From Solobacterium sp. (lineage in GTDB: Bacteria > Bacillota_I > Bacilli_A > Erysipelotrichales > Erysipelotrichaceae), in the NCBI GenBank assembly GCA_024693325.1, contig JAILLA010000031.1, forward strand, positions 1-64,000: DNA of 64,000 nucleotides, in the 5' to 3' direction. Each line of letters begins with the position of its first letter. The stretch's first letter is position 1. Shown in pieces: positions 5,719-64,000 of the stretch. Both the position numbers and the translations under genes were made by a program. The notes under the pieces are model-generated. The model was given only the letters and a program-made list of their open reading frames with translations, ran no database searches and was not told the origin of the DNA.

Positions 5719-7539
5719 TCAGTGTTCCCCAAACACGATCAGGCTGTCTGTTCCGAGTATATTCAGTTCTTCTTCCAAGGGCGGATTGAACTTGTACATT
5801 CCGATATTATTACGGCAGCCGAGGAAGATATATCCCTGCCTGTGCAGCAGCTCACGCAGTTCTTTTACGGTATATTTCCCTTCAATGTGCAGGTTAGATG
5901 CCCGTTTCATAAACAGTTCGTTTCCCTCGTTCGAAAGAAGTTCCCGGAACGCTGAGATCAGCCGGGGACTTTCCGCCAGCTGTGCAAGGAACAGGGAGGA
6001 CATATTGGAGGCGACGATAAAATCAGTATGATCTCCTTCTCCGACCAGGTTCTGGTTGCGCTCCCGCCTCATCTCAGCGGTGATATTGAACCTGAGGTGG
6101 TACTTCATCCGGATCTCCCGGAGGTTCAGAAGCAGGAAGATGGTATTCATATCTGCTTCTTCCTCATCCCCGTAGTTGCTCTGTATGATAACATGTTCCG
6201 CATTCCTGGTGATCTCCAGCAGTTTCATCTCATCCCTGACATCGCCTTCCACCAGTTCAAGCTTGATATCCCTCGCCTCACAGATGCTTTTGATCAGGTC
6301 ATATCGGTACATATCATAATTGACGAGCGTTACCTTTTCGACATTCTCCGGCAGTTCCCGGAGAATGACCTTCAGCGTGCTCTTGTTTCCAAAGATCAGC
6401 ACCTTCGTACTTCTTTCCGGCTTGACAGGCATCAGGTCAAGATCAGGCAGGACCTCACCGGTATCTGCTTTCAGATAAGAGGAATCCGATGACTGGGCAA
6501 AGACGAGAACGCTGTCATCTTCCGCCACCGTCATATCCGACGGCGGGTTCATGATGATCTCGTAGTCGTGGAAGATTCCGACAGGCACCCCATCGTCCGT
6601 CCTTCTCAACAGCTCTTTGAATGTCAGTCCTTCCTGCCCCTTCATCTTCACAAGGTACAGTTCAGATCCCTCAAAGTTGAATACTTCCCGAAACACTTCC
6701 GAAAGACCGGTCTGGGTACAGGAATGAGCAACGATCTTAGCCATCGTATCATTCGACTGCAGGGTGATGACATTGTGCTCCCTGGCAAGTGCAGGCGGGA
6801 AACGGTTCTCTTCTTTGCTGGTGATCGCATTTACCCGCGTATCCCGGCAGTCCGCCCGTGTCATCAGCGCCGATACCGCCAGCAGGATCTTGATCGTCGT
6901 ATTGTCATCCGTCGGTGAAACAAGGATGTTTTTGCAGGTACCGATCGAGAGTCTGTCGATCGACATCGGGTCGAGCAGATCGATCGTCCGGCAGATGATC
7001 CGGATATTCGAAGGAATCTCGACATTATCACGGATATACTGTTCCAGCTCATCCCGTTCCATCTCTGCCCCGATCACGATCGTACGCGGTTTTCCCGCTG
7101 CCGCAAGGATCAGCTGCCGGATCAGCGTGTATTCTCCGGGATAGAATCCGAGGAGAACCGTATGACCTTCCTCAATAACCGGTGAATTGCCTCTTCTCAG
7201 ACCGGATATCTTCTCCTCGATTGCGCTGGTAAAGATACCGATCAGCACGCTTGTCACAAGCAGTCCGGCAAATGCCGTCAGCGCCATGAGAACCAGGTAG
7301 CCCGGGCTTCCTTCATCGAACGATGGCATCCAGGCGTTGATGATCGTCGCAATGCTGTTCCAGAGGACCCCGGCCCAGCTTTCCTCTCCGTTGGCTCCTG
7401 CAAGCATGATGACGACGGATACCAGGAGCACGGTGAACACGGTAAAAATGACCAAAAGCCTGATCAGCGATACACTGCCTTTGGACATCTGGTTGTCGAA
7501 CCAATACTGGAATTTTTCTCTTCTTGTATACTTCTTCAT
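5719..7539 (-). CDS. CASTOR/POLLUX-related ion channel protein (TM helices plus RCK/TrkA-N-like domains)
   Basis: N-terminal TM segments, then EGHTVLLGFYPGEYTLIRQL...VLIFGNKSTLKVILRELPENVEKVTLVN, typical of the CASTOR/POLLUX-like family. Confidence 0.8.
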   Translation of the reverse strand: MKKYTRREKFQYWFDNQMSKGSVSLIRLLVIFTVFTVLLVSVVIMLAGANGEESWAGVLWNSIATIINAWMPSFDEGSPGYLVLMALTAFAGLLVTSVLIGIFTSAIEEKISGLRRGNSPVIEEGHTVLLGFYPGEYTLIRQLILAAAGKPRTIVIGAEMERDELEQYIRDNVEIPSNIRIICRTIDLLDPMSIDRLSIGTCKNILVSPTDDNTTIKILLAVSALMTRADCRDTRVNAITSKEENRFPPALAREHNVITLQSNDTMAKIVAHSCTQTGLSEVFREVFNFEGSELYLVKMKGQEGLTFKELLRRTDDGVPVGIFHDYEIIMNPPSDMTVAEDDSVLVFAQSSDSSYLKADTGEVLPDLDLMPVKPERSTKVLIFGNKSTLKVILRELPENVEKVTLVNYDMYRYDLIKSICEARDIKLELVEGDVRDEMKLLEITRNAEHVIIQSNYGDEEEADMNTIFLLLNLREIRMKYHLRFNITAEMRRERNQNLVGEGDHTDFIVASNMSSLFLAQLAESPRLISAFRELLSNEGNELFMKRASNLHIEGKYTVKELRELLHRQGYIFLGCRNNIGMYKFNPPLEEELNILGTDSLIVFGEH

Positions 7540-7935
7540 ACATATCCCCCCGCTGTAATGCATGATAAATTTATTATACATGAACTGCGGTCATCAACTC
7601 TCCGGTACACTCAGGTGTTACGATCGATACACAGGAAATGACATTCCATAAATGAGTCAGAGATCCCTTCCGATATATTTCCATAACTATCCGAACATGC
7701 GGATGACCTGAACAGACAGGCTTATACCGATGCGGATCATAATTCAAATCGTTTCGTTTCCGGGAAACCTTCTTTTATCGCGATTCGAAAAACGGATAAT
7801 CATCAATAGCAATCCCACAAATTCTCTGTTGGAATTGTGTCATAACGGATGTTTCGCTTATGATGAAATAAGAACCTGTCCATTTCTGCAGCGGTCATTC
7901 TGAGACAGGCAGGCAAACAATATAAAATTCATGGG

Positions 7936-8589
7936 GTGCCAAAGATGAAGAACGGAAAATACCCTGATCCTAATGTGATCCATCCGATACCCGGATATGA
8001 AAAAGAGATCTACGTAAAGCCAATGATCACAAACCCGAACATTGTCGTCGGTGATTTTACCTATATTGCGGATTCAGAGTTCGAAAACCATGTGACACAT
8101 TTTTACCCCTGGAGCAGGGATCATCTGATCATCGGAAAATTCTGTCAGATCGCTGCCGGTGTGGAATTTGTGATGAATGACGCAAATCACCAGATGAGCG
8201 CAGTATCGACATTCCCCTTCTACACACTGGAAGGCTGGGAGATGAACGCACCATCTCCTTCTGACATGCCGTTCAAGGGTGATACCGTGATCGGCAATGA
8301 TGTGTGGATCGGACAGAACACCGTCATCCTTCCCGGTGTCCATATTGGTGATGGAGCCATCATCGGTGCCAGGAGTGTTGTCGGCAGTGACGTTGATCCG
8401 TATACGATCATTGCCGGTAATCCAGCAAAACCGATCAGAAAACGGTTTGACGATGAACTGATCGGACTGCTGCTGAGATTCCGGTGGTGGGACAGAAGTG
8501 TCGAAGAGATCAACGAACTGATCCCTGTCCTGACCTGCAGTGATCTGAATATGGTCAGGGCAGAGATCAAAAAGAGAATGGATATGTGA
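7936..8589 (+). CDS. Vat/CatB-like hexapeptide-repeat acetyltransferase
   Basis: Left-handed beta-helix pattern: VIGNDVWIGQNTVILPGVHIGDGAIIGARSVVGSDVDPYTIIAGNPAKPIRKRF, with MNDANHQM and FPFY motifs of the xenobiotic acetyltransferase subclass. Confidence 0.85.
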   Translation: MPKMKNGKYPDPNVIHPIPGYEKEIYVKPMITNPNIVVGDFTYIADSEFENHVTHFYPWSRDHLIIGKFCQIAAGVEFVMNDANHQMSAVSTFPFYTLEGWEMNAPSPSDMPFKGDTVIGNDVWIGQNTVILPGVHIGDGAIIGARSVVGSDVDPYTIIAGNPAKPIRKRFDDELIGLLLRFRWWDRSVEEINELIPVLTCSDLNMVRAEIKKRMDM

Positions 8590-8737
8590 TCTTTCTGCCG
8601 GACTCTGCTTCATGACATGCATTGTATTCCAGGACTGCGTTCCGGTCCTCTCAATCCTAGCATTTTCAGTACAGGCGCATTCTAAATGCTGACTGCACCA
8701 GGAACATTTTCTAAGCAAAGTGCCATAAACACAAAAC

Positions 8738-8765
8738 CCCAATAGCGATCGTTCGCTTTTGGGGA
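8738..8765. terminator. Bidirectional terminator-like hairpin
   Basis: CCCCAATAGCGATCGTTCGCTTTTGGGG flanked by A-rich and T-rich tracts between convergent genes. Confidence 0.65.
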
Positions 8766-8804
8766 TTGTTTTATTTATGAGTATTCTATTGTTTGTTTTG
8801 TCCC

Positions 8805-10730
8805 TTACAGTTCCAGTACACGCATTGTGTTGTAGCCCTGGTGGATCGCGTCAATGATCTTGCCCATTCTGACATTGTCGCCGATCTGTGCGCATTCAAA
8901 TCCTGCGTCAACGATAGATTCGTACAGTGTCTGGTCAGGACGGAAGCCTGCCGCAAAGACAACGGTATCGCAGTTCAGGACACATTCCTGATCATCCTTG
9001 ATGTATTTGACGCCGTCATCCAGGATCTCTGTCAGTCTGGCGCTGCAGATGACTTCCGCTCCGGAGTTCTTGAGCAGATATTTGAGATTCTGTTCATTTG
9101 CGACGAATGAGCCGCCTCTGGCCATGATCTTATCCAGCATCTCAACGATCGTAACTTTCTTTCCCTTCATGGCAAGATGTGCAGCCAGTTCACAGCCGAC
9201 ATCACCGCCGCCGATGACGACGACATGGTCTCCGGTCTCCTCTTCTCCCAGGAATACAGGGATCGCTGTTTTGACAAACGGTTTGTCATATCCCGGTACA
9301 CGGATGATGATCGGGTCACATCCGGACGCGACTACGGTAAAGTCAGGATCAAATGCCTTGACGTCTTCCAGGGTGGCTGTCTTGTTCAGTTCCACATGTA
9401 CGCCGTACTTGTAAACCTGACGTTCCAGATATGCCACCTGATCTTGTACATCTTTCTTGAAATCAGGAGCACCGGCTGCTGCCATGGCACCGCCCATCCT
9501 GTTTTTCTTTTCCCAGAGGGTAACATCAAAGCCTCTTTGGGCAGCTGTGGCAGCTGCCTTCATACCGCCGGGACCTGCTCCGATGACAAGGATCCTTTTC
9601 TTTTCCTTCACAGGTGTCAGTTCATATTCTGTTTCATGCATTGCTTCAGGGTTGACGGCGCAGGGTCTTGGCCAGCCCTTCATGGAGTTGTAATGGCATT
9701 CCGCACAGCCGATGCACGGGTTGATCTCATCGAGCTGTCCTTTCTTTACCTTATTTGGCCAGTACGGATCAGCGATCAGCCCATGACCGATCGCTATCAG
9801 GTCAAGCGCACCGCTCTGCAGCGCTTCTTCCGCAACATCCGGATGATTCAGCTTGCCGTGTGCCATGATCGGAACATTTCCGGTCACGGTTCGGATCGTT
9901 CTGGCTGCCTCAACATCAAAGCCGGGCTGCTGGTAAACACTTGACACCATGCGCCAGCGGCAGGAATAGGCGCCTCTTCCGAAGTGGATCAGGTCTACCA
10001 TTCCGGACTCTGCCAGAGTCTTCGCAATATACAGACCTTCTTCCAGCGGTCTCTCCGGATCATCTACACTGTCGAGTGTCATCTTGACTGCGATCGGATA
10101 GAACTTTCCGCATACCCTGCGCACTTCTTCGATGCACTCCATCATGAAGCGTGTCCGGTTCTCCAGGCTTCCGCCGTATTCATCTGTTCTGTGGTTCCAT
10201 CTTGAAGAGTTGAACTGATCGATCAGATATCCGCCATAGGCATGGATCTCGATGATATCGACACCGGCATCCTGGGCGAACTTTGCGGCAGTACCCATTG
10301 CCTTGACCAGACGCTTGACACCTTCTGTCGGCAGTTCGCGGCAGATCAGTGACGGGTTATAGTAGTTCGGACAGGGACTTGCGGAATACGGCGGTGTATT
10401 GGGATCGATCCAGTTCATCCTGCCGATACCCGGAGACAGCTGGATGCCGAATTTTGCACCGTAATGATGCACTCTTTCAGCAACCTGGTGCAACATGTAT
10501 ACATCCTTGATGCTGGTCAGTTTCTGGCAGGGAGCCGGCTCGAATTCCTCCGAGCAGACAACAGCGCCGGTCAGGATCAGGCCTGCTCCGCCCTTCGCTC
10601 TTTCCCCGTAGTAATTGACATCACGCATGTTGAACCCATACGTATGGTCCGTTGTTGTTCCCATCGGTGCCAGCACGATGCGGTTCTTCAGAGGCATTGT
10701 GCCGATCCGGATCCTTTCAAACAATTTCAT
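8805..10730 (-). CDS. NADH:flavin oxidoreductase/2,4-dienoyl-CoA reductase-like (OYE barrel plus FAD/NAD domain)
   Basis: MKLFERIRIGTMPLKNRIVLAPMGT; CIGCAECHY Fe-S motif; two Rossmann motifs VIGAGPGGMKAA and VIGGGDVGCELA. Confidence 0.92.
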   Translation of the reverse strand: MKLFERIRIGTMPLKNRIVLAPMGTTTDHTYGFNMRDVNYYGERAKGGAGLILTGAVVCSEEFEPAPCQKLTSIKDVYMLHQVAERVHHYGAKFGIQLSPGIGRMNWIDPNTPPYSASPCPNYYNPSLICRELPTEGVKRLVKAMGTAAKFAQDAGVDIIEIHAYGGYLIDQFNSSRWNHRTDEYGGSLENRTRFMMECIEEVRRVCGKFYPIAVKMTLDSVDDPERPLEEGLYIAKTLAESGMVDLIHFGRGAYSCRWRMVSSVYQQPGFDVEAARTIRTVTGNVPIMAHGKLNHPDVAEEALQSGALDLIAIGHGLIADPYWPNKVKKGQLDEINPCIGCAECHYNSMKGWPRPCAVNPEAMHETEYELTPVKEKKRILVIGAGPGGMKAAATAAQRGFDVTLWEKKNRMGGAMAAAGAPDFKKDVQDQVAYLERQVYKYGVHVELNKTATLEDVKAFDPDFTVVASGCDPIIIRVPGYDKPFVKTAIPVFLGEEETGDHVVVIGGGDVGCELAAHLAMKGKKVTIVEMLDKIMARGGSFVANEQNLKYLLKNSGAEVICSARLTEILDDGVKYIKDDQECVLNCDTVVFAAGFRPDQTLYESIVDAGFECAQIGDNVRMGKIIDAIHQGYNTMRVLEL

Positions 10731-52338: not shown

Positions 52339-52974
52339 TCATTTCAGATCCTCTGCTGTCGTGATCTTGATGTTGTCATACGTTCCGGCTACAGCCTTGA
52401 CGGGTATGCCGTAACGCTCTGCGAGGGACGCGTCATCCGTCCCGGTGAAGCCTTCCCGGAATGCCTTGTGCATGCAGTCCAGGATCACTTTTGTATGAAA
52501 GACCTGCGGTGTCTGTGCCGCTGCCAATGAAGAACGATCCGGCGTCTCCACGATATATCCGTCCTTCAGCACTTTGATCGTATCCTTGCAGGGAACGCAC
52601 AGGCAGGCTGCCTGTTCCGTTTCCATCGTCTTTTTCAATTCATCCAGTGACTCTTTATGAACATACGGTCTGGCCCCGTCATGGATCATGACGACATCGC
52701 ACAGCACAGCATGCAGACCGTTTGATACGCTTTCCTGTCTGGTGCTTCCGCCCTTTGCCACAACGATCTTGCCGGGCCATCTGGAAGTGATCTCACGCAT
52801 ATAATCCGACGCGTCCGTTACGACAATGATCTGCGCACAGTCTTCATCATTGAGGAATGTTTCCATCGTCATTTCTAGGATCGTTTTTCCGTTGATCCGG
52901 TGATAGACCTTATTATAACCAAGTCCCATTCTTGTGCCGCTGCCTGCCGCAACGATCACTGTACTGTATTTCAT
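52339..52974 (-). CDS. ispD: 2-C-methyl-D-erythritol 4-phosphate cytidylyltransferase
   Basis: MKYSTVIVAAGSGTRMG; VVAKGGSTRQESVSNGL; VMIHDGARPYV; AAAQTPQVFHTKVI; GTDDASLAERYG. Confidence 0.95.
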   Translation of the reverse strand: MKYSTVIVAAGSGTRMGLGYNKVYHRINGKTILEMTMETFLNDEDCAQIIVVTDASDYMREITSRWPGKIVVAKGGSTRQESVSNGLHAVLCDVVMIHDGARPYVHKESLDELKKTMETEQAACLCVPCKDTIKVLKDGYIVETPDRSSLAAAQTPQVFHTKVILDCMHKAFREGFTGTDDASLAERYGIPVKAVAGTYDNIKITTAEDLK

Positions 52975-53033
52975 ACTCAGGTTCCTCCTGCCCCATTTCA
53001 TTTTACCCTGTATGGAAAAATGATTCATCATCT

Positions 53034-53173
53034 TGATACGTGCAAATTCTAATCCGAACAAAATTTAACGGTGTTTAAGGAATATAACACCGGTTATGAC
53101 AATTCTAAACTGAACAAAAGCATCTTACTTGGACGCATACCTGGCGGTTGTTACAATTCTAAACCGAACACAA
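53034..53173 (+). repeat. Putative Tn7-like transposon end with three TnsB-binding-site-like direct repeats
   Basis: GCAAATTCTAATCCGAACAAAA (53042-53063), GACAATTCTAAACTGAACAAAA (53098-53119), TACAATTCTAAACCGAACACAA (53152-53173). The outer repeat is preceded by 8 bp, TGATACGT. Confidence 0.75.
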
Positions 53174-53247
53174 ATTAATAACAGGCATTTAGGAGCAGAT
53201 AAAGACTCTTGCAAACCAACAACTTATACTACCGACTGTTTGAGCCA

Positions 53248-53271
53248 AAAAAACGCCGCATTGGCGTTTTT
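53248..53271 (-). terminator. Intrinsic terminator after tnsC
   Basis: Minus strand AAAAACGCCAATGCGGCGTTTTTTT. Confidence 0.85.
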
Positions 53272-53281
53272 CTAATCTCTG

Positions 53282-54841
53282 TTAAATAATGCATTCTTCA
53301 AGTTTACTGAACAGTTCTTCCGCTGACTCTGAAGATTTTTTCTTCTTATAAGTCTTTTTCTTAGTCACTGCCGCAAATACGTCCAGGAGTACTTTAGACT
53401 GATTCAAATCGCTCAGAGGCAAATCTCCGATTATTTCACCACACGACTTACGAATTTTTTCTTCAGCAATATCAGGCCTGCTCTCTTTAATCTGAGAAAT
53501 GATTTTACAAATGAGTTCTTCTCTTTCGAGTGCATCCTTATCGGATACAATCATCTTTGTAACTTCTTTCTGCTGTTCATCAGAATGAGTGATTCTGCTG
53601 ACCGCTTCTTTGTTATTCAATTTTGTAATTGCTTTGTTAAACTCATTAGCCTTATCTCTCTCAAACATTGCCGCTACTGCCTCTTTTCTCCGCTGAGAGA
53701 AAATTTTCCTTGCTACACGCTTAACGAAACTAGCATCTATTGTTGGTGGCTTATCAAGAGACAGGTACTCCTCATGAAGTCCAATATACAGCCCGGTCAC
53801 CATGTCAGCAACTCCATGTGTACATTCCCATATAGCATTTATAATTGTGTCGTCAAAGATAATACGTTCGTCAAACCACTGGTAATGTGAGATAGTCCTG
53901 AAAAAATAGATATAGAATTCTTTGCTGTAGCAATAATTTGAAGCATCAATGACCTCACCAATGCGCCTTGCTGTTCTGTTGTTGACGAACATACGCTCAT
54001 ATGCGTCTGGGGTACCGATTATACATATGGCGGCTTTCGTGCGATTATTAATTGTAAGAAAAGATTCAAAACTTGATTCGCGATTCGCTGAAAAATTGAG
54101 CAATTGTATTTCATCGATAATAATTGCACCTATCCCAAAACAATTGATCAAATCACATAATGCATCAACTTTGGCGCCAAGAGTACGCTGCTTGTTAATA
54201 TACTCTGAATAAATCTTCTCCAATCCCAAAGCTTTGTCAATCTCCTGTCCAATCTGATGATACAATTCAGAAAGGTTAGAATTGATCATGCAAGTAACAG
54301 CTATATAAACAATTTGCGAAAAAGAACTCACCCCGTCCATGCCGATATGGTGACGAATTACCTGAGGGTATGGCTTTATCATGTTTTTCAGTGCTGATGA
54401 TTTGCCACAACCGGATTCACCAATCAATGCAAAACCCGGAACTGCTGCATCACAGATTTCTCCATATAGTCGTAAGCTCTTTCTTTTGGATGTCACGATT
54501 TTGAAATCACGCGCACGATAACTTGATAACAGAGCCCTGTAAAAGAGATAATCAAGTCGTGTCACGAAAGGCAGAGGTACACGAATCAGTTCCATCTGCT
54601 GCACTAACATCTTTCTTTTTTCACGATTTTCAGTAGTTTCTTTGTTAGTATACAAGGGCAACGCATTTGTATACCTGGTGATCACGTCCTTCTTATCAAA
54701 TGAGATTCTTGGCAATGCTTCGATGCAGGCGTTGCCTTCATCACCAGGTATGATGGCACTGCTGTATTTGGCATCAACAATATTACTGCTCAGTTCTTCC
54801 TGAGTATATGATTCGTTTGTAATAGTATAGTTAAGTTTCAT
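53282..54841 (-). CDS. tnsC: TnsC-like AAA+ transposition regulator
   Basis: Walker A GESGCGKSS, Walker B GAIIIDEIQLL. Start MKLNYTITNESY after GAGGTGAAGAAT; overlaps tnsB. Confidence 0.9.
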   Translation of the reverse strand: MKLNYTITNESYTQEELSSNIVDAKYSSAIIPGDEGNACIEALPRISFDKKDVITRYTNALPLYTNKETTENREKRKMLVQQMELIRVPLPFVTRLDYLFYRALLSSYRARDFKIVTSKRKSLRLYGEICDAAVPGFALIGESGCGKSSALKNMIKPYPQVIRHHIGMDGVSSFSQIVYIAVTCMINSNLSELYHQIGQEIDKALGLEKIYSEYINKQRTLGAKVDALCDLINCFGIGAIIIDEIQLLNFSANRESSFESFLTINNRTKAAICIIGTPDAYERMFVNNRTARRIGEVIDASNYCYSKEFYIYFFRTISHYQWFDERIIFDDTIINAIWECTHGVADMVTGLYIGLHEEYLSLDKPPTIDASFVKRVARKIFSQRRKEAVAAMFERDKANEFNKAITKLNNKEAVSRITHSDEQQKEVTKMIVSDKDALEREELICKIISQIKESRPDIAEEKIRKSCGEIIGDLPLSDLNQSKVLLDVFAAVTKKKTYKKKKSSESAEELFSKLEECII

Positions 54842-56939
54842 ATTCTTCACCTCCCAATTTTTCAAAAATCTTTAATCCATCTTCAAGAACATCGTCAGTG
54901 CTTGTATATGGATCTGTAATCATCGGCTCAGCAGGGTTAGGTTCTTTTACATCAGGAAGAAGCAATACGTTATTTTCAACCGGAACGATAAGCTGTTCCT
55001 GCGCCCTCTTGGATGCTTCCTCTGATCTTGCTTTTCTCATATCTATTTTTGTGTTTTTCTCAACCCTCTGTTTTTCAGCAATACGAATGATCTCGGCGAC
55101 TGCATTTACGGTATTCGACTTGATCAATCCATTAAGCACTTCGGCATCTCTATCAGTTTTCAAGTGTTCCTTGCGGGCTTTTCTGTATTCATCCAGACTG
55201 CCGGATAACCTCTTTTGGTTTGCGCGATTTGTATTCAAGGAGATAGTTTCCAATGTATGATCTCTCATAATAAACACCCTTGTAATGTCTCGCGTATCCA
55301 TTCGTACTTCCACCTTATCCTTCTTATCTTTTGACGAATAAATCATTTCCCTGAACCAGGCAGATTCTGAAAGATAATTCAAGCCTTCGAAGTTTAATCC
55401 TTTACGGGTTAAATTCATTTTCAGCGGTTGTAAAAGTGAATATCTGAAAGCTGTAAGATTTATCTGTTTGGGTAAACCATAATGCCTTACCCCAAAATCC
55501 CAAAGACAGGTACTCGTTGCAATAACACCTTCCTCGTGCATTTTTTTAGTCATCGGATAATTTTTCCAGTACAGAGCATTGTGCATTATTATTGTCCGGA
55601 TGATAATCTCTTCGAATTCGCTCATTGTCAGAATTGCGTCTTCGCTCGGATCATCCTCTTTTCTTCCGGTTATACCACCATGTTTTGTATAGAGGAACTT
55701 AGTCGGTGCTGAGGACGAATGGAAAGTGCCTTCAACTAACCCCTTCAAACTGCCTGTAGCAGGTGGAACCAGCTCATGATTGATCCCCAGTTCGGCGCAT
55801 ATCCTTGCCATTTCCTTAGATAAGTATTCTGCACCATAATCAGTTCTCAATCTGGCCGGCAAATAACCCGAAGGCCAAAGCTCAGGTTTAATGGTGATAC
55901 CATATTTTTTACATAGTGCGACTTTATCGTCAGAAAGACTCAGCAAACAATTCTTAGCTCCGTTTATTCCGTTGTTCACAAAGCCGACGGAATATCCCAT
56001 AATCTTTCTGCTATAAACATCTATCATCAGATACAAAATCGGACGACCGATTTCTATCGACCGATCTTCTTCAGCAACTATCCGCACATCAAATTCCTGC
56101 TCATCCGTTTCGAAAAGATCACCAGGACCATATACTCCGGAAAGATTATCTGAAACGAGGATCCTTTTATTATTTCGAAAATCTCGTTCAGTTGTATTAG
56201 CCTTTATCCTCTCTTCTGAAGTAAGATTTTTTTTCACATAATAATAGAACTGGCGCGCTGATGGTTTTAAAATGTGTACTATTGTACGTCCAGATTCATC
56301 TTTGGATGTTTCCCAGTCATATTGTTTATCATTTTCACTGAAACACCCAATTAAAGTGGCGTCCGGATTACCCTTATACTTCTTGATTGCTTTGTCAAAC
56401 ATCTCCCGATCTTTGTCATCTAAAAGTTTTCCAGCATACACATGATTCTCTGCTGGCCTGCCCGGCTTTTTAGTGTATTCGTATTGAACGTTTTTACTGT
56501 TGCCGAACTGGCGACGGTCATAAAGCATTCTTCCGTCGAGACCAGACTGAAGATATACTCTGAACAACTGCCAGAAAGTCGTTTTACCTATTGAATATTT
56601 TTCACAAACAGATTTAACAAAATCATTAGCTCCTTTTCGATGATATCTTTCTAGCTCATCTCCAAAAAAATTCATCGCATCTTTACAGATCGATATGTTT
56701 CTCATGGTTTTTTCGCTAATCTCATCTTCTATCTGAATGTTCACTTCCTGAAATGGAACGATTTGCCAGCACTGGCTTGCTATGTTTTTTCCAATTTCAT
56801 CCGTGAAAAGCTGCGATACTATGATTTTCGACACATTCATGTCAACCATTGTTACAACGTTATCTTTAATGCAAATGATTCGCCTGACGCCTTCAGGTGA
56901 AATTATCACATCACCGACTCCATATGATACTGTCTGCAT
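54831..56939 (-). CDS. tnsB: TnsB-like DDE transposase
   Basis: DLFETDEQEFDV, LRTDYGAEYLSKEMARICAELGINHELVPPATGSLKGLVEGTFH (DDE residues); Mu/Tn7-type C-terminus. Confidence 0.93.
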   Translation of the reverse strand: MQTVSYGVGDVIISPEGVRRIICIKDNVVTMVDMNVSKIIVSQLFTDEIGKNIASQCWQIVPFQEVNIQIEDEISEKTMRNISICKDAMNFFGDELERYHRKGANDFVKSVCEKYSIGKTTFWQLFRVYLQSGLDGRMLYDRRQFGNSKNVQYEYTKKPGRPAENHVYAGKLLDDKDREMFDKAIKKYKGNPDATLIGCFSENDKQYDWETSKDESGRTIVHILKPSARQFYYYVKKNLTSEERIKANTTERDFRNNKRILVSDNLSGVYGPGDLFETDEQEFDVRIVAEEDRSIEIGRPILYLMIDVYSRKIMGYSVGFVNNGINGAKNCLLSLSDDKVALCKKYGITIKPELWPSGYLPARLRTDYGAEYLSKEMARICAELGINHELVPPATGSLKGLVEGTFHSSSAPTKFLYTKHGGITGRKEDDPSEDAILTMSEFEEIIIRTIIMHNALYWKNYPMTKKMHEEGVIATSTCLWDFGVRHYGLPKQINLTAFRYSLLQPLKMNLTRKGLNFEGLNYLSESAWFREMIYSSKDKKDKVEVRMDTRDITRVFIMRDHTLETISLNTNRANQKRLSGSLDEYRKARKEHLKTDRDAEVLNGLIKSNTVNAVAEIIRIAEKQRVEKNTKIDMRKARSEEASKRAQEQLIVPVENNVLLLPDVKEPNPAEPMITDPYTSTDDVLEDGLKIFEKLGGEEYET

Positions 56940-57616
56940 AAATCCACCTCCCTCTTATATCTGATCGCCAGTTCTCTGAAATCCAGTTCCTCTGACTCAA
57001 GATCCACTTTTATCAACCGTCTGGCAATCAAATGTTTCACATAACTGATGTCATCTAAGGCATTTTCTGGCAGGTTATAAAACGCGGTTACAAGTCGAAT
57101 GTTATGAGCATATGTCCTATTAATGGTTTCACCATTTATGATAAAAAACTTAATATGCTGCCTTTTCCAGTATTCATGCTCGAGACGAAGCTTTTCATAA
57201 AGCCTCTTTGCTCCATCTTCTTTTGGCCCCGGCAGACTCGCTTTAACTGAATATGCCATTAAATCTCCTGAGTTTGTCGTCACAAGAAGATCTGTACTTA
57301 TTGTCACTGGTTTATGTGTTTTAGAATCAAGTGGGTGCTGTATATGCAACTGGTCAGCTAATTCGAGTGTGATATCCAGCTGTAAAGGGACCTGTTCACG
57401 AACATCTATAACGTATGGATTAAAACGGAGTATGTACCACGCAAGATGCTCTGGTTGTGACTCCAAATGCACCTGCCGTCCAGTAATCCAGTCAATCGGT
57501 GTCGCTGTTGTACCCAGGCTTCCAAATTCACCTGTCTGGATCCAAGGCTTATAATTTGCACCTTCTCCAGTGCCTCTCTTTTCGGCATATTTTTTTTCGT
57601 CAGTTTTGTATCGCAT
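56906..57616 (-). CDS. tnsA: TnsA-like endonuclease
   Basis: SQPEHLAWYILRFNPYVIDVREQVPL, ISTDLLVTTNSGDLMAYSVKAS, LRLEHEYWKRQHIKFFIIN (E/D/K catalytic pattern). Confidence 0.93.
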   Translation of the reverse strand: MRYKTDEKKYAEKRGTGEGANYKPWIQTGEFGSLGTTATPIDWITGRQVHLESQPEHLAWYILRFNPYVIDVREQVPLQLDITLELADQLHIQHPLDSKTHKPVTISTDLLVTTNSGDLMAYSVKASLPGPKEDGAKRLYEKLRLEHEYWKRQHIKFFIINGETINRTYAHNIRLVTAFYNLPENALDDISYVKHLIARRLIKVDLESEELDFRELAIRYKREVDLCRQYHMESVM

Positions 57617-59006
57617 AAAAAATCCCCCTTGTACGTAAATGTCCTTTATCTGTTAATACTGTCAGCGCATGTCGAATCTTGTGAATTGGTAACTCACTGA
57701 CATGTAATGTCAGGTCCTGAAGAGTAAACTCATCATCAAAATGTTCAATTATCGTCCTGTACACCGTCCCAACGTAAGTACTGTCGCAAAATGGGCAGCT
57801 ATACTGAGAAAGTGGTGTCATCGTGAATGTGTTTCCACATGCAGTATGCTTCAAAGTCAGAAAATTATGCTTTGGCACCGGATATCTAAGGATTTGGAAT
57901 GGAGGAAGTTTTTTCAAAGAAATTGGCTTCTTCTGCTTATCTTCCAGTTCACATACACAAGGATGTGGTTTCAGTATCCTGCTTGTATTGACGACCGACT
58001 GTCTGCCACATTTTTCGTGTTCGATAACAATTCTTGACGGTGAAAAAGGTTCTCTCGCAAGTCTGTACGACTCACCGCCGGCATTCAGAATCTTCGAAAT
58101 GCGGCTTTCAAAACTGAGTTCAGAGTCACAAGAAGGACAATTTATTCCATGCTGAATTGTTTCTTCATTTGTATAGAATTCACTTCCACATGAGTGCTTT
58201 ACTTTGAAAAGATACCGTGGTCCATCAATCAGTTGATAGTCAGCAGGTAAATTCAGTTTCCACGGATAATGACTGCAGAAGTAGTCATAAGCATCAGCAT
58301 ATGATGAGAACACCAACATCATCGTTTTGAAAACAAGAGGCATGAGCACATTAACGTTTTTCTCCGAAATTTTACCGAAATGCTGCGGTATGAGGTTTTT
58401 GACTGATTCATCTTTAAGCCAATCTAAAATATCATCACGTCCTACTTGCAGCGGACTCTTGTAGTACTGATACACCCACTCAGAGTAGTCAGTACCATTA
58501 ACGACCTCTACGGGAGATCCTGTTGAAAAATCGAACATGTCAATATCTTTTATGTATCCACAACTGATCAACGGCACATGATGCACAGGACAAACATCCA
58601 CCCCTGGAAGATAATGGAACCGGCGTAAGACTTTTGTTTCATCCCAGCAATGAGGACAAACGTTTATTTTTACAGGATAAAGTGATGCTGACTTATCGAA
58701 ATGAATAGGATAATCTGTCACCTCAGCAGTATACGCAGCTATCTCATGTGACTTTAAAAATGGGTACTGGTAAGGAAAAAGGGTCAAACTTTTAGTAAAC
58801 TCAGAGATGTCATTTTCTATCAGCAAAGTTAATGCTGAATGATACATATTCATATCAAGTGCATTAGGTTGGGCGGATAATGAACTCTTTGTTATTGCGG
58901 TATTATAAAAATCTGACAAATTGTTAAAGCCGTTAGCATATGCCAATCTCAAATAATATGAAATTGCCAATTCATCTTTTTCTGCTTTTATTTGTGTCGG
59001 CAACAT
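57600..59006 (-). CDS. TniQ/TnsD-like target-selection protein
   Basis: N-terminal TniQ domain with CPHCWDETKVLRRFHYLPGVDVCPVHHVPLISCG zinc finger plus further CxxC pairs and a C-terminal winged-helix-like region. Start MLPTQIKAEKDELAISYYLRLAYANGF after GAGAAAGGAGATCCCT. Confidence 0.92.
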   Translation of the reverse strand: MLPTQIKAEKDELAISYYLRLAYANGFNNLSDFYNTAITKSSLSAQPNALDMNMYHSALTLLIENDISEFTKSLTLFPYQYPFLKSHEIAAYTAEVTDYPIHFDKSASLYPVKINVCPHCWDETKVLRRFHYLPGVDVCPVHHVPLISCGYIKDIDMFDFSTGSPVEVVNGTDYSEWVYQYYKSPLQVGRDDILDWLKDESVKNLIPQHFGKISEKNVNVLMPLVFKTMMLVFSSYADAYDYFCSHYPWKLNLPADYQLIDGPRYLFKVKHSCGSEFYTNEETIQHGINCPSCDSELSFESRISKILNAGGESYRLAREPFSPSRIVIEHEKCGRQSVVNTSRILKPHPCVCELEDKQKKPISLKKLPPFQILRYPVPKHNFLTLKHTACGNTFTMTPLSQYSCPFCDSTYVGTVYRTIIEHFDDEFTLQDLTLHVSELPIHKIRHALTVLTDKGHLRTRGIFYAIQN

Positions 59007-59083
59007 AGGGATCTCCTTTCTCTTATGAGGGGATTTCCCTGCAACAAACAAAGAGCGCTCTGCACAGGAAAATCCCGTGACAT
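58988..59083 (-). CDS. Putative 31-aa leader ORF overlapping the tniQ start
   Basis: AAAGGAG-6 nt-ATG; MSRDFPVQSALCLLQGNPLIRERRSLCCRHK*; runs 19 nt into tniQ in another frame. Confidence 0.35.
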   Translation of the reverse strand: MSRDFPVQSALCLLQGNPLIRERRSLCCRHK

Positions 59084-59093
59084 AGAGCGCTCC
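59030..59093 (-). promoter_or_regulatory. Interlocking inverted repeats in the tniQ leader (possible attenuator/alternative structure)
   Basis: Pair 1: AGAGCGCTCT (59052-59061) with AGAGCGCTC (59084-59092). Pair 2: GGGATTTCCCTG (59030-59041) with CAGGAAAATCCC (59065-59076), one mismatch. The pairs cross. Confidence 0.55.
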
Positions 59094-59292
59094 TTTTTTT
59101 GCATTACGAGCCAAATTAAGCTCCGCCCCCGGTATCACTCCCCAACACCTGCTCTTCACATAGCCGAAGGATCATTGTTAGCCGAGTAGCTTCTGTCTAT
59201 ATTATTATATCACACTTCCGAATCATCAGTTTGAACTATTTCCAAGCATGAATTATATGAATGCACAAATATATTTGCTTGCAATAGCAATT

Positions 59293-59712
59293 TCATTTTG
59301 CAGGGCTCTGTTTTGCATATCTTTCGTATAACTGAATAGATTTGTTGATCAGCTGTATCACTTCATCTTTATTCCATTCGAAATTCACTGGTAAATCTCC
59401 CCGTTTCTGCAAATCCAATTTTTTATCGTAGCAATAAAAATCCAAAAAATCATTTATATGTTCTGCTATTTCTTCAATACTGGTGTAATCCGATGTAAAA
59501 TTCCCAAATGTTTCTAAACCGCTTGGACGGCGTACATTTAGACACGTCATTACCCGATAATGATTATTATCTTCAATCTCTATTATCTTTACAGCCACAA
59601 TTTTTTTAATGTTTAAGGTTATTAATAATTTTGAATCTTGTTCAACAATTTTGCTATGTGGGAACCATTGTAAATAACGTTGTTTCTGTTCATCTGCAGT
59701 CATAAGGTACAC
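59293..59712 (-). CDS. Hypothetical protein, AT-rich
   Basis: 139-aa ORF with a plausible start near an RBS (GGAGGAGTGTACC); no recognised domain. Confidence 0.55.
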   Translation of the reverse strand: MYLMTADEQKQRYLQWFPHSKIVEQDSKLLITLNIKKIVAVKIIEIEDNNHYRVMTCLNVRRPSGLETFGNFTSDYTSIEEIAEHINDFLDFYCYDKKLDLQKRGDLPVNFEWNKDEVIQLINKSIQLYERYAKQSPAK

Positions 59713-59900
59713 TCCTCCCCCAGGTGTAACAAATGAATCTTGGTACCGCCACTACAATAACACTAACGATACAGAAAAATGAATATCTGTTTAAATATTT
59801 CTCGATATTAGTCATCTATATCAAGCTGACATTGTATTATTATATTTATTGCTATCCAGATAAGTTTCAAATTACAATAATAATGTGTTTAGGATGAACA

Positions 59901-60518
59901 ATGAAAAAAAAGATTAATGTAATATTGTCAGTTTTTATGGTTTTATGCTTATTTACAGTCAGTTGTAATTCTTCATGTAGAAAGCAGATAGAGACATATG
60001 ATGATTTAAGGCCCTCAATGAAGATGTTTTCAGACATCAGTAACTGTTATGAGGCGAGTAGTGATCATTTTTGTGTAAAAATAACTGGTATTCAGAAATC
60101 AGAAGATGATTTCTCTTATCAGTATTCTTATGCATTAGCCATTGCTTGTACGAAAGACGAACCAATGAGAATCCGAAATATTGAATTCTATAATGATCAA
60201 TTGCTTGATCAAAAGCTAGTTGGTTTTTCACTTCCACAAAAGTTTCAAATATTGGACTATTTCGAGAACACCAATTTTACGGATAAGTATTCTTTTGAAG
60301 CATTCCAGTGGATTATTAAAAAAAGCATTTCCAAAGACACCTTAAAACATATTGATTACAGTGAAGAAGAACTAGACAACAGCATGAAGAAAATAAACAT
60401 AAAGTTTGTGTTCAATATGCAAGAGGAGTTGATAGAAATATCCTGTGATCAGTTACTGCCATTTGAGATTCCATTTTTCAGAGGAGACTATATGTTTGGG
60501 GTTTTAAGTGATTTCTGA
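59901..60518 (+). CDS. Hypothetical lipoprotein
   Basis: Signal peptide and lipobox: MKKKINVILSVFMVLCLFTVSCNSSC. Confidence 0.7.
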   Translation: MKKKINVILSVFMVLCLFTVSCNSSCRKQIETYDDLRPSMKMFSDISNCYEASSDHFCVKITGIQKSEDDFSYQYSYALAIACTKDEPMRIRNIEFYNDQLLDQKLVGFSLPQKFQILDYFENTNFTDKYSFEAFQWIIKKSISKDTLKHIDYSEEELDNSMKKINIKFVFNMQEELIEISCDQLLPFEIPFFRGDYMFGVLSDF

Positions 60519-60545
60519 ATCATGAAAAAAGAAAGGTAGGATAGT

Positions 60546-60950
60546 ATGAAGATTTCAGAATTACTGTTTTCAAGGCTTTTCATGATTCTGTTTACCTACT
60601 GTGCATGGTTTCTGGGACTCAGTCCTCAGTTATCACAAACAAACAGAATCCTGTGCTTTCTGATCACGGTCATCTGGATGATATATATTCTCCTTTATGC
60701 TTACCGGAGAAACAGTCTTTTTGTAAAAATCTACGGCTGGGCATTTCTGTTTATGGCTGTTCTGGTTCTTGGCACAAAGCTGTTTCATTTGCCGTATGAT
60801 CTGACGATCCTTGCGGTGTTTCTGTATCCTCCTTTCGGCGGATTACCACTGCAGAATCGTCCGGTACTGCTGGTTTCATTGATCTCGGTCTACTGGATAA
60901 TCGTGCTTGGAATATGTTACCGTGACAGACTGTCACACCTGAAACGTTAA
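60546..60950 (+). CDS. Hypothetical membrane protein
   Basis: 134-aa multi-TM ORF with RBS GAAAGGTAGGATAGT. Confidence 0.65.
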   Translation: MKISELLFSRLFMILFTYCAWFLGLSPQLSQTNRILCFLITVIWMIYILLYAYRRNSLFVKIYGWAFLFMAVLVLGTKLFHLPYDLTILAVFLYPPFGGLPLQNRPVLLVSLISVYWIIVLGICYRDRLSHLKR

Positions 60951-60975
60951 AATACGGATTTGAGGAATTGTACGT

Positions 60976-61305
60976 ATGAAAAAGAGAAGCATTTACTCCC
61001 TGATCTGTGCCGCAGTCATTGCGGCAGGATGCGCATTGATAACAGCACTGAAAGGCTGGGGTCTTTCCGAATTCTGCTACTGCATGATCGCGGCAGGACT
61101 TATAGCATGCGTGGCCGGTGTTGGATTTACACCATCAAATCGCAGCGGGATTGGCAGAGGACAGTTTGGTACAGGCATGGAAAAACTTGTCCTGGATTCA
61201 TGGCAGATGGAAGGAAAAAAGAGACAGAACAGTACGATCGATTTCCTGTATATCGGCGGTGCACTCTGTGCAGCCCTGGGATTCCTGATCATGGCTGTGT
61301 TCTGA
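60976..61305 (+). CDS. Hypothetical membrane protein
   Basis: 109-aa ORF with three TM-like segments (SLICAAVIAAGCALI; YCMIAAGLIACVAGVGF; FLYIGGALCAALGFLIMAVF). Confidence 0.65.
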   Translation: MKKRSIYSLICAAVIAAGCALITALKGWGLSEFCYCMIAAGLIACVAGVGFTPSNRSGIGRGQFGTGMEKLVLDSWQMEGKKRQNSTIDFLYIGGALCAALGFLIMAVF

Positions 61306-61435
61306 TCATCCGTCTTCACACTGCTCCGGCAGTATTGAAAGAAAACAGATCAGGACGCAGTGTTTGTCAGAACGAAACAGTACCCGATTTATCAGATGAA
61401 TACGAAAACACTCAAATATTTTGGAGGCAATCAAG

Positions 61436-62047
61436 ATGGCAAGAATATGTTCAGTATGCGGCAAAAAAGCAGATACTATGCTTCAGAGCGGAAACGTTGT
61501 CGGATCTGCTGTGATCTGCTGGGACTGTTATCTCAAGATCAAACACTTTTCCAAACAGAAGGTTTTTGAAACACCTGAAGCACTCGAAGAGAATGAAGCA
61601 ATCGTCATGCAGGAGCTGCAAGACAATCAGTTCCCGGAAAGTGTTATTGAAGAATACAGAAAATACTATGCAATGAAAAAGAATCCGGTTCTTGCTTCAG
61701 GAGAAGATCCTGTAATGATTACCACGACACCTGAATTCAGTGGATATCAGATCCGTGAATATAAAGGCCTTGTATCCGGAGAAGTTGTGATCGGTACTGG
61801 CATATTATCCGGCATGGAAGCAGGTGTAGCGGATATGTTCGGCTCCGAAGCATCGGCTTATGGAGAAAAAATCGATGCGGCAGAGTCTGTTGCTGCCAGA
61901 AGGGCATACCGTGAAGCCTGCAGAAAAGGCGGCAATGCGATTGTCGGTGCAAAACTGGATCTGGAACTGTTCGCAAGAGATCTGATCTGTGTCATGGTCA
62001 GCGGTACTGCAGTATTGATCGAAAAGGAGAATGAAGAACAGAAATGA
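61436..62047 (+). CDS. YbjQ family protein with N-terminal zinc-ribbon-like domain
   Basis: MARICSVCGKKADTML...ICWDCYLKI (CxxC...CxxC) plus YQIREYKGLVSGEVVIGTGILSGMEAGVADMFGSEASAYGEKI...GGNAIVGAKLDLE. Confidence 0.88.
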   Translation: MARICSVCGKKADTMLQSGNVVGSAVICWDCYLKIKHFSKQKVFETPEALEENEAIVMQELQDNQFPESVIEEYRKYYAMKKNPVLASGEDPVMITTTPEFSGYQIREYKGLVSGEVVIGTGILSGMEAGVADMFGSEASAYGEKIDAAESVAARRAYREACRKGGNAIVGAKLDLELFARDLICVMVSGTAVLIEKENEEQK

Positions 62048-62561
62048 GATCCGGCTGTACAATGTGATTTTTCCAATATATTTCATTCTGTATTTTCCGA
62101 ACCCGTTCTGGGTGATTGCAATTCCATTGAATTATGTCATTGACAGCCTTGTGCTTCGCCTGGGACTGAAGCTGTGCCGGATCTATGAGAACAAAGAGGA
62201 ACGCAGGCATTTTATAAACAGAACAGCATGGAAGCTGTGCATTGCCGGATTTACTGCGGATTATCTTGGTGTCCTGTTTCTGATGTATTTTCCGCAGTTG
62301 TTTCTGTCGGAGCAGCTTGCAAGGGAAATTGCCACAGCACAATATACCAGCCCGTTTGTCTCATCGGATGTACTTGCAGTATTTCTGGCTACTGTAGTAT
62401 TCTCCGGCATATGCATCTGTATAATTGACCGGTGGATTCTGAAGAAACAGGGACTTGATGCAAAAACAGCCGGGAAGATTGCATTATTGCTGGCAGTGCT
62501 TACAGCACCGTATCTGACGCTGTATCCTACAGGAATGATCATGAATTATGAAACATTCTGA
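62031..62561 (+). CDS. Hypothetical membrane protein
   Basis: 176-aa multi-TM ORF overlapping the ybjQ-like gene. Confidence 0.6.
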   Translation: MKNRNEIRLYNVIFPIYFILYFPNPFWVIAIPLNYVIDSLVLRLGLKLCRIYENKEERRHFINRTAWKLCIAGFTADYLGVLFLMYFPQLFLSEQLAREIATAQYTSPFVSSDVLAVFLATVVFSGICICIIDRWILKKQGLDAKTAGKIALLLAVLTAPYLTLYPTGMIMNYETF

Positions 62562-62591
62562 CATATAAGAAAGAGAGGGTTATATGCATTC

Positions 62592-62747
62592 ATGAAAGAC
62601 CTTAATTATCTGGTGTTTCTTGTCGGACTGTTTATCAGTTTTATGACCGGCATTATTACACTGCTGATATTCCATGATTTATCTTTTTCCGGAATGTGCA
62701 TCATTGCTTCCGCAATTCTGTATTCCCATTCACTGGAACAGAAATAA
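62592..62747 (+). CDS. 51-aa membrane protein (below the ORF-track cutoff)
   Basis: MKDLNYLVFLVGLFISFMTGIITLLIFHDLSFSGMCIIASAILYSHSLEQK* in a collinear cluster. Confidence 0.5.
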   Translation: MKDLNYLVFLVGLFISFMTGIITLLIFHDLSFSGMCIIASAILYSHSLEQK

Positions 62748-62753
62748 TGCTTT

Positions 62754-63206
62754 ATGAAAACTATGGAAAAAATGCTCCATGATGAATACCTGGCGCTTGC
62801 ATGGATCGCAGTAACGGTAGTGCTTGATGTAATCTGCATATTTGCGCCTTTTGTATCCTCTGCATTGTGGTTTAAGTTCATATGCTCGATTATGTATTCA
62901 GCCTTTATGGTTTATTACGCGTGTTCAGCTACCAATCGTACATACTATTTCCATGTGATCGTTGTTATATGTTTACTGCTGACGGCAGTATATCTTGCTG
63001 ATTTAAATCATCCAGCCATTATCCCGGAAAATCTGCTGATCCCGGCAACCGCAATTTTTCTGTTTCCATATAACGGGGCGATGGAGGTGTTTGGTGCATT
63101 TATGAATCCGTATCTGATGGTATTGCTGTTTCAATTGTTATTGCTTGCAGTACATTGCTTATTCCGCAAACATAGTACGGAGAGAAATGAGGATTATATC
63201 GGGTAG
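62754..63206 (+). CDS. Hypothetical membrane protein
   Basis: 150-aa multi-TM ORF. Confidence 0.6.
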   Translation: MKTMEKMLHDEYLALAWIAVTVVLDVICIFAPFVSSALWFKFICSIMYSAFMVYYACSATNRTYYFHVIVVICLLLTAVYLADLNHPAIIPENLLIPATAIFLFPYNGAMEVFGAFMNPYLMVLLFQLLLLAVHCLFRKHSTERNEDYIG

Positions 63207-63254
63207 AAGGATAGGTATTTTTGTAACAGACATGACTGAGAGGCAGGACAGCTT

Positions 63255-63917
63255 ATGAAAAAATGGATTGCGGGAGCTTTGCTGTTTGTACTTTTTATCG
63301 CAGCTTTCATAAATAACGAAGGGAAAAGATACAACGGATATGATCCGGACAGTCCCTATATCGGCTATTCCGGGCCAATGTATTCTGTTGTATCACTTCG
63401 GGATGATGATCTTATGACAGTACAGGAACGGAACGTGTCATTTGATTTTTCTACATATCAGGATGACTGGTTTGATACCGGGTATATTGATTTTCTGAGA
63501 CAGCAGGAATGGTACGATGCAACTATGGAAAAGCAGCTGAAAGAACTGCGTCAGTTCAAGGGTGTTTACAGTGACGATGTCCTGCTGAAAGACACCTATA
63601 CCATTCAGAATCATTCTTCCGCAGAAGAGACAGCTGTCCTCGTATATCCTTTTGTATCAAATATCTCGGAAATATCGGAGAGACGGCCGGAGCTGTTCCT
63701 GAATGGACAACAGATCCATACTGATATTCGTTATGGTGATGTCTGGGATGGTGCACGGAGAGTGTGTGACAATTCCAACCAGGAATACCGTGAGCTGCTG
63801 AAAGACAATGCATATCTGGATCATGCGCTGAGCGAAGAAAGATATAATCTTCCCGATCTTCCATTCCATTTATATAAAATGGACAATATTTTGCTAATCA
63901 CAGTCCATCTTTTATAA
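63255..63917 (+). CDS. Hypothetical secreted/membrane-anchored protein
   Basis: N-terminal signal anchor MKKWIAGALLFVLFIAAFINN; RBS-like AGGCAGGACAGC. Confidence 0.6.
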   Translation: MKKWIAGALLFVLFIAAFINNEGKRYNGYDPDSPYIGYSGPMYSVVSLRDDDLMTVQERNVSFDFSTYQDDWFDTGYIDFLRQQEWYDATMEKQLKELRQFKGVYSDDVLLKDTYTIQNHSSAEETAVLVYPFVSNISEISERRPELFLNGQQIHTDIRYGDVWDGARRVCDNSNQEYRELLKDNAYLDHALSEERYNLPDLPFHLYKMDNILLITVHLL

Positions 63918-64000
63918 AGAAAGCAAAAACAATGATTTATAATGAACACGAAAGCATATGGACAGAAAAATATTGCGAAATTACATATATAACATTCTGT

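Follow-up and report, generated by a model that had tools for sequence, protein, structure and literature searches.

Tn7-like elements normally insert at TniQ-directed sites, and termini of the form TGT...ACA are typical of them, if not universal. Loci with a single selector are known in thousands, 2,905 Tn7-like loci with one TniQ or TnsD having been reported (PMC10293859), and according to a review the transposon end with overlapping TnsB sites appears nearest to the recognised att site (PMC11406308). The element described here, from Solobacterium sp., a gut bacterium of Erysipelotrichales type, is of this ordinary and known kind, and its insertion site is unusual. The window (the whole stretch of DNA that was analysed, 64,000 nucleotides) very probably holds a Tn7-like transposon with TnsA, TnsB, TnsC and TniQ, inserted between ispD and a gntR/ABC-transporter operon. 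Its features are given below by position in the window, which belongs to contig C98 of assembly G000; G005 is the genome of a sister species.

52339..52974, minus strand: ispD, a host gene outside the element (TIGR00453, 7.8e-67), also found at the G005 empty site
53029..53033, no strand: CATCT, 5-bp target duplication, copy on the left (on the right: G000 contig C30, 20114-20118)
53034..53175, plus strand: left transposon end, terminus TGATACGT, then TnsB-type repeats at 53044, 53100 and 53154
53282..54841, minus strand: tnsC, AAA ATPase, 519 aa from the ATG (mechanical ORF to 54865), with Pfam AAA_22/TniB and a profile match to Tn7 TnsC
54831..56939, minus strand: tnsB, DDE transposase, 702 aa, D279/D367/E403, matching Tn7 TnsB (7pik) with the DDE in register
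56906..57616, minus strand: tnsA, endonuclease, 236 aa, E56/D109/K125, Pfam 3.6e-11, matching Tn7 TnsA (1f1z)
57600..59006, minus strand: tniQ/tnsD-type target selector, 468 aa, Pfam TniQ, weak match to Tn7 TnsD (8glu_X)
59050..59105, minus strand: strong hairpin with a U-rich tail (terminator or attenuator-like), directly upstream of tniQ, fold z-score -3.6
59293..64000, no strand: cargo within the element (small membrane proteins and lipoproteins, a YbjQ-type protein, the start of a flippase), from ORFs and Pfam
61421-62047, strand not given: YbjQ-type protein, cargo, from ORFs and Pfam
C98 63958-65406, strand not given: Wzx-like flippase, cargo, starting within the window, from ORFs and Pfam

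The core genes form a single overlapping operon on the minus strand (53282-59006) in the order tniQ-tnsA-tnsB-tnsC, and with the likely starts the overlaps are about 17 bp (tniQ/tnsA), about 34 bp (tnsA/tnsB) and about 11 bp (tnsB/tnsC). The start of tniQ is the ATG at 59006, preceded by AAAGGAG, and that of tnsC the ATG at 54841, preceded by GGAGG. The overlapping minus-strand four-gene operon of the first-pass annotation is retained, with the ATG in place of the GTG at 59159 as the tniQ start. Its span for the locus, 53034-59210, is right on one side: 53034 is an exact terminus, but the element continues past 59210 through the contig end at 65612, and a transposon end at 59210 was rejected, neither repeats nor a break being present there. 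The hairpin upstream of tniQ was more stable than its shuffled counterparts, none of the 200 being equally stable.

Pfam profiles, an HMM check that had been proposed beforehand, place all four core proteins: TniQ (PF06527, E 2.2e-16 to 2.8e-16), TnsA (Tn7_TnsA-like_N, 3.6e-11), TnsB (Mu-transpos_C, 2.2e-5, and rve, 3e-7, slightly below the rve cut-off) and TnsC (AAA_22, 4.4e-13, and TniB, 1e-5). None of them had a strong NCBIfam model. For comparison with PDB structures we built profiles from relatives of TnsA, TnsB, TnsC and TniQ. TnsB matched Tn7 TnsB (7pik) at 2.7e-69 and TnsC matched Tn7 TnsC (8glu/7mbw) at 1e-39 (8glu_G, 1.1e-39), both over nearly full length; TnsA matched Tn7 TnsA (1f1z) at 2.6e-40, and TniQ had a weak match to Tn7 TnsD (8glu_X, 3e-8), a PDB search with the single TniQ sequence giving no match. 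The catalytic residues claimed earlier are kept: E56/D109/K125 of TnsA align with E63/D114/K132 of Tn7 TnsA, D279/D367/E403 of TnsB are in register with the Tn7 TnsB DDE, and TnsC has a Walker A (GESGCGKS) and a Walker B (IIIDE) motif. These alignments with solved Tn7 proteins, of the TnsA triad together with the TnsB triad, argue for the cut-and-paste transposition which had been proposed by analogy. In TniQ the TniQ domain is followed by three CxxC/HxxC zinc-ribbon-like units and then by C-terminal helices. Its AlphaFold2 model, of low confidence (mean pLDDT 55.7), repeats a strand-strand-strand-helix unit with CxxC/HxxC pairs three times and makes the C-terminus helical; so modelled, the C-terminal part would be consistent with a DNA-reading tail, nothing beyond that.

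At the left end the three TnsB-type repeats (consensus CAATTCTAAACCGAACA) are spaced by 56 and 54 bp, and these three matches in the window stand against 0.13 expected by chance. The sole other cluster of such repeats in the 3.6-Mb assembly is found on contig C30, at 20129, 20150 and 20184, with a spacing of 21 and 34 bp, i.e. as near-overlapping sites, and the right terminus is at C30:20119, on another contig than the left one. The termini are TGATACGTGCAAATTCTAA at 53034 and TGTATTGCGCAAATTCTAA at C30:20119; the right end is TGT and the left end TGA instead of the usual TGT. G005, whose IspD is 95% identical to that of G000, carries the precise empty site of the element. CATCT occurs there once (L044 5633-5637). 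The two flanks of the element are contiguous in G005, the left one aligning at 96% identity (5.6 kb) and the right one at 93% (10.1 kb), and their alignments meet at one point with an overlap of CATCT(T) only. TnsA is absent from the searched G005 genome. An assembly artefact was rejected because both breaks fall at the same point of G005. The first-pass annotation had taken the locus for a mobile insertion and advised a search for the unoccupied site in close relatives; the exact breaks at both ends, and the contiguous flanks around a single CATCT, bear out the former and complete the latter.

Because core genes, catalytic residues, both ends, the CATCT duplication and the G005 empty site are all in place, the element is, as judged from its sequence, a bona fide and complete-looking Tn7-like cut-and-paste transposon. 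By analogy with Tn7, TnsB would bind the repeats at both ends, and since by homology TnsA would cut the 5' strands and TnsB the 3' strands, the element would leave by cut-and-paste. TniQ would then recruit TnsC to the target, where strand transfer, staggered by 5 bp, would leave CATCT on each side. Activity of the element and its cut-and-paste transposition are predicted on these grounds, and the choice of target is probably made by the C-terminal zinc ribbons and helices of TniQ.

The interior of the element runs to the end of C98 at 65612, where its final 124 bp are the same as those of C30 (C30:21238-21361). A direct join of the two contigs would give an element of 13,698 bp (~13.7 kb), and such a join is likely, although the same repeat also opens contig C17. 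This repeat of at least 124-141 bp ends three contigs (C98:65489-65612, C30:21238-21361 and C17:1-124); it was not found beside the fucose genes in G005, and probably marks the border of a different small mobile or repeat element. Its presence at the start of C17 is what would favour a wrong join of C98 and C30 and a longer element, perhaps with a second TniQ, a TnsE or a CRISPR module. We consider this improbable, as past the repeat C17 continues into fucose genes that are 98% collinear with G005, and the G000 genome has one TnsA only and no second real TniQ. A candidate second TniQ at C39:2520 (E 3.4e-4) was rejected as a protein of repeated zinc-ribbon units with no adjoining Tns genes. The element may still hold additional cargo or another selector outside its assembled part.

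Within the assembled part the element's ORFs include no TnsE and the ORFs searched no Cas-like gene, which upholds the earlier description of a locus with a single TniQ and neither TnsE nor Cas. With no Rfam match in the window either, a CRISPR-associated element was rejected for the assembled part. The cargo gave no match to PADLOC defence families. The Wzx-like flippase is 90% identical in amino acids to a copy in the G005 polysaccharide cluster, against 73% for the second copy that the host itself has; this greater closeness to the chromosomal gene of the sister species suggests that cargo was acquired from a relative.

Relatives were collected by a TnsA-based scan of species genomes and an order-level search, which gave about 20 loci. 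In the TnsB and TnsC trees, a comparison also recommended beforehand, the window falls within a gut-Firmicutes clade, apart from the TnsABCDE elements, with clade support of 100/99 for TnsB and 100/100 for TnsC and with unsettled branching inside the clade. The order TniQ-A-B-C is found in the window and in L070, L073, L085, L086, L088, L089 and L090, the order B-C-TniQ-A in L067, L068, L071 and L072, and the order A-B-C-D in Tn7-type plasmid elements, each of the three being a rotation of a single cyclic order. The gene order does differ from canonical Tn7, as was first noticed, but it is not unique to the window, being common to the gut-Firmicutes clade. The three rotations (A-B-C-Q, Q-A-B-C and B-C-Q-A, as seen in L067, L068, L071, L072, L085, L109 and the window) might have arisen by recombination of tandem copies. 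In L073 a second tnsC end is situated ~14.5 kb from the first.

Three relatives end just behind a conserved gene. L085 and L086, two Gemmiger elements behind nrdD, end ~16-18 bp past its stop codon, and L088, a Clostridia element behind typA, ends ~6 bp past that stop codon. In all three the tnsC-proximal end faces the target gene and its terminal sites are 20 bp apart; the other ends of L085 and L086 were not found in their assemblies. L085 (8922-12846) and L086 (9945-13763) are ~98.6% identical over 12 kb save for two parts: nt ~110-770 of tnsB (aa ~37-257, the DNA-binding part), only 47% identical, and the tnsC tail with the transposon end, where the TnsB repeats are CCAACTATAWWTGCG in one and TTTTAGTYGCAAYAAG in the other with the same spacing of 44 and 20. 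From these sequences the DNA-binding domain of the transposase appears to have changed in concert with the end sites, as a natural swap of end specificity. L088 has three consecutive TniQ-type ORFs upstream of tnsA (6177-9998). The TnsA of L072 (5718-6413, genome G030) is without the usual nuclease residues, having Q for E, H for D and T at the K position, and because of this loss the L072 element may transpose by cointegrates.

The element of the window is flanked by the 5' ends of two divergent units, ispD and the gntR (YtrA-type)/ABC-transporter operon. To the left of the insertion, 59 bp away, is the ispD start codon, next to the tnsC-proximal end with its spaced sites (56 and 54 bp), and the distal end with near-overlapping sites (21 and 34 bp) is ~80 bp upstream of gntR. 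Divergent promoters at this place are presumed only from the divergence of the genes, because a promoter scan of the empty site gave 0 sites. No gene 3' end is present at the site, one insertion of the element is known, repeated use of the site was not observed, and among the loci compared ispD and gntR are adjacent only in G000 and G005. All this would suit an off-target or loosely targeted insertion into a lineage-specific neighbourhood, seen since the gap between divergent promoters is harmless, a reading to which we give slightly less than an even chance: the TniQ present has a long DNA-binding-like C-terminus, and in Tn7-like elements the site is normally chosen by TniQ. A search of 320 genomes from the order and 396 from the phylum gave no homologue of this TniQ that exceeds ~30% identity over any stretch, the best being ~21-24% identical. 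The fixed site that the first-pass annotation thought probable is therefore no more than a possibility, as a single insertion cannot establish site specificity.

The architecture of the ends points to the gntR side, and not to ispD, as the recognised target, since by the published rule (PMC11406308) it is the end with overlapping sites, here the one facing gntR, that should be closest to att. L085, L086 and L088 conform to the same rule, their end with 20-bp-spaced terminal sites adjoining the target gene. It is therefore possible, if tentative, that TniQ recognises the promoter/operator or the 5' coding end of gntR and that the element inserts beside it in one orientation. This has to be set against the single insertion, the restriction of the gntR-ispD neighbourhood to two genomes, and the fact that the three relatives target the 3' end of a conserved gene while here a 5' regulatory region is concerned. 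That TniQ is specialised for such a regulatory or 5' region, on the gntR promoter-operator side, as a promoter-to-promoter "safe site" in which the end with overlapping sites lies away from the transposition genes, is in our opinion doubtful. Recognition of the ispD 5' end, 59 bp from the left end, is quite unlikely: ispD is widely conserved (29 of the 31 searched genomes) and, like the target genes of L085, L086 and L088, lies close to the tnsC-proximal end, but the end on its side has spaced sites, its 5' and not its 3' end faces the element, and no other examined genome of the genus has an element at ispD. In the literature searched we found no paper naming ispD or nrdD as an insertion site of Tn7-like elements.

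The locus provides an element fully bounded by its two ends, with the duplication and the empty site, in a gut-Firmicutes group that has been little studied and whose core order is a rotation of that of Tn7. Its odd site offers a clean test of whether target choice tracks the end with overlapping TnsB sites, and the clade, in which similar cores are paired with many unrelated TniQs, can supply new tools for site-specific integration.

From the comparison with known systems, the element resembles Tn7 in the homology of all four core proteins, with TnsB and TnsC in near-full-length register, in having three repeats spaced out at one end but close-packed repeats at the opposite end, and in the 5-bp duplication. 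It differs from Tn7 in that no TnsE is among the ORFs seen, TniQ is encoded before TnsA and not after TnsC, the genes are crowded at the spaced-site end while the cargo lies toward the end with overlapping sites, the left terminus reads TGA, the target is no gene 3' end, and TnsB and TnsC are outside the TnsABCDE group. Assignment to Tn7 sensu stricto (TnsABCDE, glmS) was therefore rejected on the unseen TnsE, the TniQ-A-B-C order and the site between ispD and gntR. With the single-selector loci of PMC10293859 it shares one TniQ/TnsD alongside the other core genes. L085, L086 and L088 have the same TniQ-TnsA-TnsB-TnsC order, with the operon directed toward the nearby end, and belong to the common TnsB/TnsC clade; the window TnsA is 50-51% identical to those of L085/L086 and 43% to that of L088, while the TniQ proteins are just 21-24% identical. 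In these relatives the tnsC-proximal end has closely spaced sites and abuts the stop codon of a conserved gene, whereas in the window that end has spaced sites and faces the 5' end of ispD.
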